DNA of 21,301 nt from a virus: IMG/VR virus record IMGVR_UViG_3300047562_004169, positions 1-21,301 of that record; one strand, given 5' to 3'. Every line of letters begins with the position of its first letter. Position 1 is the stretch's first letter. A model generated the notes under the pieces. It had not been told where the DNA came from. It was given only the letters and a program-made list of their open reading frames with translations, and made no database searches. The translations under genes were made by a program, and so were the position numbers. Of this stretch, positions 941 through 2,022 are shown piece after piece.

Positions 941-1798
941 ATGACAGATCAAGCAAACCCATTAAGTCGCTACTACAGACAGCCCAAGATCTATATAAGT
1001 CTGCCCAGTGGTGGCAGATACTACGATGCGGCGACCTTTACACCGACACAGACCGGCGAGATCCCGGTGATGCCTATGACAGCCAAAGACGAGCTGGCAT
1101 TCAAGACGCCAGACGCCATGATGAACGGACAGGCCACCGTGGACGTTATACAGAGCTGTTGTCCCAACATCAAGGATGCCTGGCAGTTAGTGAGTTACGA
1201 CATCGACACCATACTGCTGGCCTTGAGGATCGCCACCTACGGTGAAACCATGGACATAAACATCACGGTCCCGGTAACCAACGAGAAGTTGACACAGACC
1301 ATAAACCTGCCTGCACAGTTGGAGGCCATAGGCAAGCTCAACATCAAGGACGAGGTCACAACAGAGATAGGACTCAAACTCCACATCAGTCCGCTGAGGT
1401 ACAAGAAGCTGACCGACATACAGTTGGCCAGTTACGAACAACAGAAGATATATGCCACGGTCAGCAACAGCGCACTGACAGAGGCACAGAAGAGCGAACA
1501 GTTCACTAAAAGTTTCCAGAAGATGAACGACATCAATTTCGACCTGTTGGTGGATAGCATATCGGAGATACACACCCCGGATGGACAGAGCGTCAAAGAC
1601 GCCGCACAGATACAGAATTTCATAAACAACTGTGATGCCAAAATCGTGAATGACATACAAGACAAGTTAGGAGAGATACGGATGCAAGGACAGGTCAAAC
1701 CATTCATGATGAAAGCCACGGAGGAACAGATCAAGAAGGGAGTTCCGGCCACTTACCAAGTGCCAGTGAGCTTTGACAACTCAAATTTTTTCGTATAA
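941..1798 (+). CDS. 26: T4 gp26-like baseplate hub assembly protein / tail assembly chaperone
   Basis: A 285-residue soluble protein. The N-terminal part has the pattern YISLPSGGRYY, EIPVMPMTAKDEL, KTPDAMMNGQATVDVIQSCC, typical of the T4 gp26 baseplate family in marine T4-like phages (T4 gp26 is about 208 aa). In T4, gp26 takes part in assembling the baseplate hub. The adjoining 51-like gene supports the call, since 26 and 51 are neighbours in T4. The start at 941 is the first ATG of the frame and follows a perfect late promoter by 43 bp; no clear Shine-Dalgarno is present, only an A-rich stretch. The stop codon lies four bases after a double slippery sequence (1783-1792). Isoleucine codons are 15 ATA, 11 ATC and no ATT. 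Confidence 0.72.
   Translation: MTDQANPLSRYYRQPKIYISLPSGGRYYDAATFTPTQTGEIPVMPMTAKDELAFKTPDAMMNGQATVDVIQSCCPNIKDAWQLVSYDIDTILLALRIATYGETMDINITVPVTNEKLTQTINLPAQLEAIGKLNIKDEVTTEIGLKLHISPLRYKKLTDIQLASYEQQKIYATVSNSALTEAQKSEQFTKSFQKMNDINFDLLVDSISEIHTPDGQSVKDAAQIQNFINNCDAKIVNDIQDKLGEIRMQGQVKPFMMKATEEQIKKGVPATYQVPVSFDNSNFFV
1783..1792 (+). promoter_or_regulatory. Candidate programmed -1 ribosomal frameshift site
   Basis: In the gp26 frame the codons are TCA AAT TTT TTC GTA TAA. Two overlapping heptamers fit X XXY YYZ: A AAT TTT (1783-1789) and T TTT TTC (1786-1792). The -1 frame is open across the gp26 stop and leads straight into the 73-residue downstream frame. A slip on the second heptamer would give a fusion of 284 + 76 = 360 residues. 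Phage tail assembly chaperones are known for exactly this arrangement (lambda G/GT type). I did not identify a clear downstream stimulatory stem or pseudoknot. Confidence 0.6.
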
Positions 1799-1800
1799 AG

Positions 1801-2022
1801 TTGCTGACAATGGGGAACTCTGACATGTTGAAATTCTTCAACGACATGGAGGCCGACAGCAAGAACCTACGCAACGAGCTACTAAAGATATGCTGGTTCA
1901 TGCGTGGTGGGGTCTCTTACCAGGAAGCCCTCAACATGGGTCCAGAGGACCGGATGATCGTTGGTAATATCATAAAAGAGAATATGGACACCACCAAAAA
2001 GACCGGTCAACCTTTCTTCTAG
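1801..2022 (+). CDS. 51: Small gp51-like tail/hub assembly protein, probably the frameshift extension of gp26
   Basis: A 73-residue frame with RNELLKICWFMRGGVSYQEA and ending TTKKTGQPFF. Small proteins of this type follow gp26 in marine T4-like phages and are often called baseplate hub assembly catalyst after T4 gp51, which is much larger (249 aa), so the name rests mainly on position. The frame opens with TTG at 1801, two bases after the gp26 stop, and the first ATG is at 1810; neither has a convincing ribosome binding site. The frame is -1 relative to gp26 and open back through the slippery T-run, so I favour synthesis as a gp26-51 fusion rather than, or in addition to, independent initiation. 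Confidence 0.6.
   Translation: MLTMGNSDMLKFFNDMEADSKNLRNELLKICWFMRGGVSYQEALNMGPEDRMIVGNIIKENMDTTKKTGQPFF

Follow-up and report, generated by a model that had tools for sequence, protein, structure and literature searches.

A probable programmed -1 frameshift in the gp26-like tail assembly chaperone gene of an uncultured marine T4-like phage

Introduction

In a viral genome from an uncultured marine clade, the gene for a gp26-like protein ends in a run of slippery codons and is followed by a small open reading frame in the -1 frame. The arrangement raises the question of whether the two frames are separate genes or whether some ribosomes slip from one to the other, so that a tail assembly chaperone is made in two lengths, as from G and GT of phage lambda. 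Frameshifting of the G-T type is widely conserved, with T4 as an exception (Atkins et al., 2016; PMC5009743), and the T4 proteins gp26 and gp51 have been listed as hub assembly chaperones (PMC3004832). Vladimirov, Gautam and Davidson (2022) described tail chaperone frameshifting in T4-like phages, with 26 and 51 as a chaperone pair. According to PMC10885494, that work found a short gene together with a long, fused one in some T4-like phages, and PMC12846349 treats poly-T slip signals in the TAC-N genes of T4-like phages as known.

We analyzed a stretch of 21,301 nucleotides (IMG/VR record IMGVR_UViG_3300047562_004169, positions 1 to 21,301), hereafter the window. Our conclusion is that positions 941-2022 very probably contain a programmed -1 frameshift, located beside the tape measure gene, by which two tail assembly chaperones of different length would be made in the manner of lambda gpG and gpGT.

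Results

The features of the chaperone locus are the following:

941..1798, plus strand: short form TAC-N, gp26-like (PF12322), 285 amino acids, 0 frame
1783..1789, plus strand: second heptamer A_AAT_TTT, which overlaps the main one and is invariant throughout the marine clade, though not among the jumbo phages or cyanophages
1786..1792, plus strand: main slippery heptamer T_TTT_TTC, in phase in all relatives except XacN1 (T_TTT_TTT)
1796..1798, plus strand: 0-frame stop codon, end of the short form
1792..2022, plus strand: C-terminal domain TAC-C in the -1 frame, with 76 codons that would follow the slip, a stop and no conserved start codon
941..2022, plus strand: long form TAC-NC, equivalent to gp51, for which 360 residues are predicted after frameshifting

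The gp26-like gene ends with TCA AAT TTT TTC GTA TAA, which is read at positions 1783-1798 as A AAT TTT TTC GTA TAA in the 0 frame. The two overlapping slippery sequences that an earlier note on this DNA had pointed out are indeed present; both are in frame and both are valid X_XXY_YYZ heptamers. Their distance to the stop had been given as four bases and has to be corrected, with only three bases between T_TTT_TTC and the stop codon. The -1 frame was described as open and as running into a reading frame of 73 residues, which agrees with our translation: it is open from 1777 to 2019, past the gp26-like stop, and has its own stop at 2020-2022. Fusion of the two frames is predicted to give a protein of 360 residues, and the junction SNFFR is, as judged from the sequence, identical for a slip at either heptamer. 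In the window as a whole, TTTTTTC is not rare (9 found versus 5 expected) and the case for a slip site therefore rests on the comparison with relatives; AAATTTTTTC is rarer, with 2 occurrences versus 0.1 expected.

Relatives were collected from IMG/VR (39 loci) and from annotated phages. In total, 42 junctions were computed, of which 27 belong to the marine clade (window included), 12 to jumbo phages (among them PA5oct, Atu_ph07, Phosso, 121Q, RaK2, GAP32, Munch and SCTP-2) and 3 to cyanophages. A broad profile of the jumbo phages was too divergent for scanning viral contigs. All 42 junctions have an in-frame T_TTT_TT(C/T) near the end of gp26 with an open -1 tail behind it, and the -1 frame extends for 60-79 codons past the slip site. 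The heptamer is T_TTT_TTC in the 26 marine relatives, in 11 of the 12 jumbo phages and in the 3 cyanophages, while XacN1 has T_TTT_TTT. It was also recovered from Pectobacterium phage CBB and from all 76 further distinct cyanophage-type loci. As a check, the earlier note had proposed to follow the heptamer and the -1 relation across relatives, and none of the one-gene relatives examined lacks either. The overlapping A_AAT_TTT is fixed in the marine clade, with TCA or GCA before AAT in 26 of 26 close relatives, but missing from most groups outside it, and we therefore take T_TTT_TTC to be the main site.

Codon usage at the junction was compared with that in the rest of the gene. Of the 279 usable columns in the marine clade, only the three of N-F-F (AAT TTT TTC) show no variation among synonymous codons, and the four-codon stretch at N-F-F ranks first of 258. 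The residue preceding FF varies among relatives (N, S, H, D, Y, R, A), and its codon ends in T every time. In one relative (L031), the 9 other upstream phenylalanine codons are all TTC and never TTT, and the slip site is still TTT TTC; the same holds for the slip site in the window, where TTC is used for 6 of the 8 other upstream phenylalanine codons. The fixed N-F-F codons, the T at the end of the codon before FF and the lone TTT in L031 show that the slip-site codons are constrained at the nucleotide level, beyond what the protein alone would demand.

Were the 73-codon frame a separate gene, with ribosomes re-initiating or being coupled behind the TAA (from TTG at 1801 or ATG at 1810), the slippery appearance of the junction would be incidental. 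An ATG overlaps or lies near the stop in Atu_ph07, Phosso and 121Q, and in several phages small genes have been annotated separately at this place, both of which would fit such an arrangement. We nevertheless consider it improbable. The frame at 1801-2022 was thought to lack a good start or ribosome binding site, and it does begin with nothing but a TTG, with no Shine-Dalgarno-like sequence at the possible starts in the window. Among the junctions of the relatives, no conserved start codon was found in the -1 frame, and at least eight relatives (L003, L006, L009, L010, L016, L034, PA5oct, RaK2) have no ATG, GTG or TTG in the first 26 codons of this frame. Conservation of the -1 protein instead begins at the slip point (KFFRI.LL), upstream of any start codon, and coupling would leave the fixed AAT TTT TTC codons unexplained.

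Slippage of the RNA polymerase on the run of six T residues, rather than of the ribosome, could also make the fusion, and the run is conserved. Transcriptional slippage in bacteria usually takes place on runs of about eight or more, so that six is short, and codon phase would not be needed, yet the heptamer always has the form X_XXY_YYZ with fixed borders; we give this even less credit than a separate gene. Homopolymers are prone to error, and a sequencing or assembly indel might have split one long gene in two, but the same pair of frames is seen 42 times over, in contigs and reference genomes that were assembled independently, which refutes an artifact for practical purposes. A programmed ribosomal frameshift of the tail assembly chaperone type, as the earlier note proposed, is the reading supported by the conserved heptamer and the open -1 frame, as well as by the neighboring tape measure gene.

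We examined the junctions for stimulators of ribosomal frameshifting. In the marine clade, no conserved downstream RNA structure was detected (the RNAalifold consensus was empty and z-scores scattered around zero) and no Shine-Dalgarno-like sequence was found within 29 bases upstream. The fold downstream of the slip site in the window itself has a z-score of only -1.4 to -1.7, and with no structure shared in the clade we claim no structural stimulator for it. Strong hairpins directly past the slip site, of a kind not seen in the clade of the window, were found in Atu_ph07 (z -7.5; L041, 3338-3417), Phosso (z -4.4; L043, 3332-3411) and XacN1 (z -4.3; L052, 2290-2369), where they may be lineage-specific stimulators. 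In most of the cyanophage-type loci (L064-L143), the heptamer is preceded at a distance of 14-15 bases by GAGG or GGAG. This stretch may act as a stimulator of the dnaX kind or may simply result from a conserved Glu-Gly.

The following features bear on the expression of the locus:

1..861, minus strand: N-terminal part of a tape measure gene in divergent orientation, truncated where the window ends, homologous to L028:784-2919 (E 7e-21)
890..897, plus strand: T4-type late promoter TATAAATA of the chaperone gene
923..930, minus strand: T4-type late promoter TATAAATA of the tape measure gene
10687..11670, minus strand: late sigma factor (gp55-like; phrog_12791, E 8e-85), which would read the TATAAATA promoters

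The homolog L028:784-2919, a protein of 712 residues in a relative, matches tape measure PHROG 167 (E 9e-10). A tape measure-like neighbor had been taken to fit the chaperone reading and the adjoining gene bears this out, in divergent orientation. The interval 862-940 between the two genes contains a back-to-back pair of exact T4-type late promoters, and most members of the marine clade share the spacing of TATAAATA (near -51 on the plus strand and near -18 on the minus strand). Because of these promoters and the gp55-like sigma factor, the chaperone and the tape measure protein are probably expressed together and late. We tentatively envisage for the marine clade that A_AAT_TTT and T_TTT_TTC slip jointly in the invariant element CAAATTTTTTCG without a structural stimulator and that the back-to-back late promoters tie the chaperone to the tape measure, a combination that is possible but on balance doubtful. 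Elsewhere in the window, a small reading frame at 5186-5599 matches phrog_447, which bears the label NAD synthetase, as well as several families of homing endonucleases, and is possibly a homing endonuclease. It adjoins a gene for a Radical SAM-like protein at 5589-6605 (phrog_14086, E 8e-12; the Pfam match is below the cut-off).

We also compared the two parts of the product to gp26 and gp51 of T4. The N domain encoded in the window matches PF12322 with 53.1 bits (cut-off 24.5), and T4 gp26 and T4 gp51 each match this family over its full length. T4 gp26 stops at ...EFFELL, whereas gp51 has an extra C-terminal tail behind PF12322. Profiles of the cyanophage, marine and jumbo phage tails aligned to the gp51 tails better than 100 of 100 column shuffles in hhalign, and the C-terminal extension scored 27.2 against that of gp51, with a maximum of 19.3 in 100 shuffles. 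The match is strong for the cyanophages (hhalign probability 96%) and weak and short for the marine clade (31-33 columns). PHROG 634, named "baseplate hub assembly catalyst", matches residues 147-246 of T4 gp51 and the -1 reading frame of Syn9. In a PHROGs scan of the whole frameshift product, the phrog_150 match extended no further than that of the short form, and the link between the tail and gp51 thus rests on the profile comparison.

Since T4 genes 26 and 51 are located on opposite strands, frameshifting cannot join them. They are paralogs that form a short-form/long-form pair, with two genes taking the place of slippage. One copy of PF12322 was found in the one-gene phages where the family was detected (SCTP-2 is below the reach of the model and the three marine contigs searched are fragments), as compared to two copies in six Straboviridae, namely T4 and five others; one-gene slippage and the two-gene solution of T4 are mutually exclusive in the phages checked. 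The PF12322 matches, the alignment to the gp51 tail, the strands of the T4 genes and the copy numbers indicate that the short form corresponds to gp26, and the whole 360-residue product, rather than the 73-codon frame, to gp51. The label "51-like" that the -1 frame had been given in the earlier note is apt in that the tail appears homologous to the C-terminal domain of gp51, and misleading in that the frame is not gp51 itself. Likewise, the suggestion that gp26 and gp51 are a frameshift chaperone pair holds for a short and a long partner; the two T4 proteins are, however, paralogs from opposite strands, and the idea was published in 2022.

Structure models were compared to BFVD and the PDB. 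For TAC-N (941-1795), the named tail assembly chaperone of Arthrobacter phage Molivia was matched in BFVD with an E-value of 7.1e-3, and the HK97 chaperone 2ob9 in the PDB at E 3.3 only. No PDB match was convincing, and the rows from VIA-align, all with Z under 8, reflect helical arrangements that are common among proteins. The model of the -1 tail had no match in BFVD. With a probability of 1.00, the TAC-N model also matched two sets of proteins in BFVD, uncharacterized ones of 500-550 residues in phages RSF1, RP12, Eowyn and Special G, and ones named "baseplate hub" in ACP17, 2050H1 and similar phages. On the basis of the model, these proteins are candidate tail assembly chaperones.

Discussion

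That ribosomes slip, and how often, is inferred, as is the action as chaperones, the latter by way of lambda G/GT and the genetics of T4. Positions 941-1798 would encode the short chaperone TAC-N, and a fraction of the ribosomes would slip back one base at T_TTT_TTC (1786-1792), perhaps helped in the marine clade by the overlapping A_AAT_TTT. The slipped ribosomes would bypass the TAA at 1796 and add the C-terminal domain of 76 residues, giving the 360-residue TAC-NC. Both forms would then coat the tape measure protein made from the divergent neighboring gene, with the N part binding to it in either form, by analogy with lambda G/GT (PMC5009743), while the C-terminal domain would recruit subunits of the tail tube or hub. 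Neither form is expected to remain in the finished tail.

The slip site is kept evenly across marine, jumbo and cyanophage relatives, in a setting where frameshifted chaperones were long called missing in T4 (PMC5009743). In 121Q, RaK2-like phages, Atu_ph07, Syn9 and others, the annotation of the small reading frames downstream of gp26 as separate genes should give way to that of a C-terminal part added by frameshifting. Frameshifting is not mentioned in the papers on RaK2, CBB and Atu_ph07. The abstract of the 2022 survey by Vladimirov and colleagues reportedly names genes 26 and 51 and is said to describe frameshifting as kept in several T4-like groups.

In lambda G/GT, a -1 slip near the end of the short gene likewise adds a C-terminal domain, and the tape measure gene is adjacent. 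It lies directly downstream in lambda and is divergent in the window, the slip site is different, and no sequence homology is shown here. T4 gp26 resembles the short form and T4 gp51 the long form, both with a full-length PF12322 domain, but unlike in the window they are made without a frameshift from two genes on opposite strands. The Kyanoviridae Syn9 and P-RSM4 have gp26 and a small "gp51-like baseplate hub assembly catalyst" reading frame, with T_TTT_TTC and an open -1 tail as in the window. Their tail is shorter and of a different sequence, GAGG or GGAG is often located 14-15 bases upstream, and A_AAT_TTT is missing. Closest in kind are the TAC-N frameshifts of T4-like phages in the 2022 survey, which are alike in the gp26/PF12322 family, the poly-T site near the 3' end of TAC-N and the production of short and long forms. 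Since tail chaperone frameshifting in T4-like phages was reported there, the frameshift predicted in the window belongs to a known kind and is a further well-supported case. What appears to set the uncultured marine clade apart is the overlapping A_AAT_TTT, together with the divergent late promoters from which chaperone and tape measure would both be expressed.
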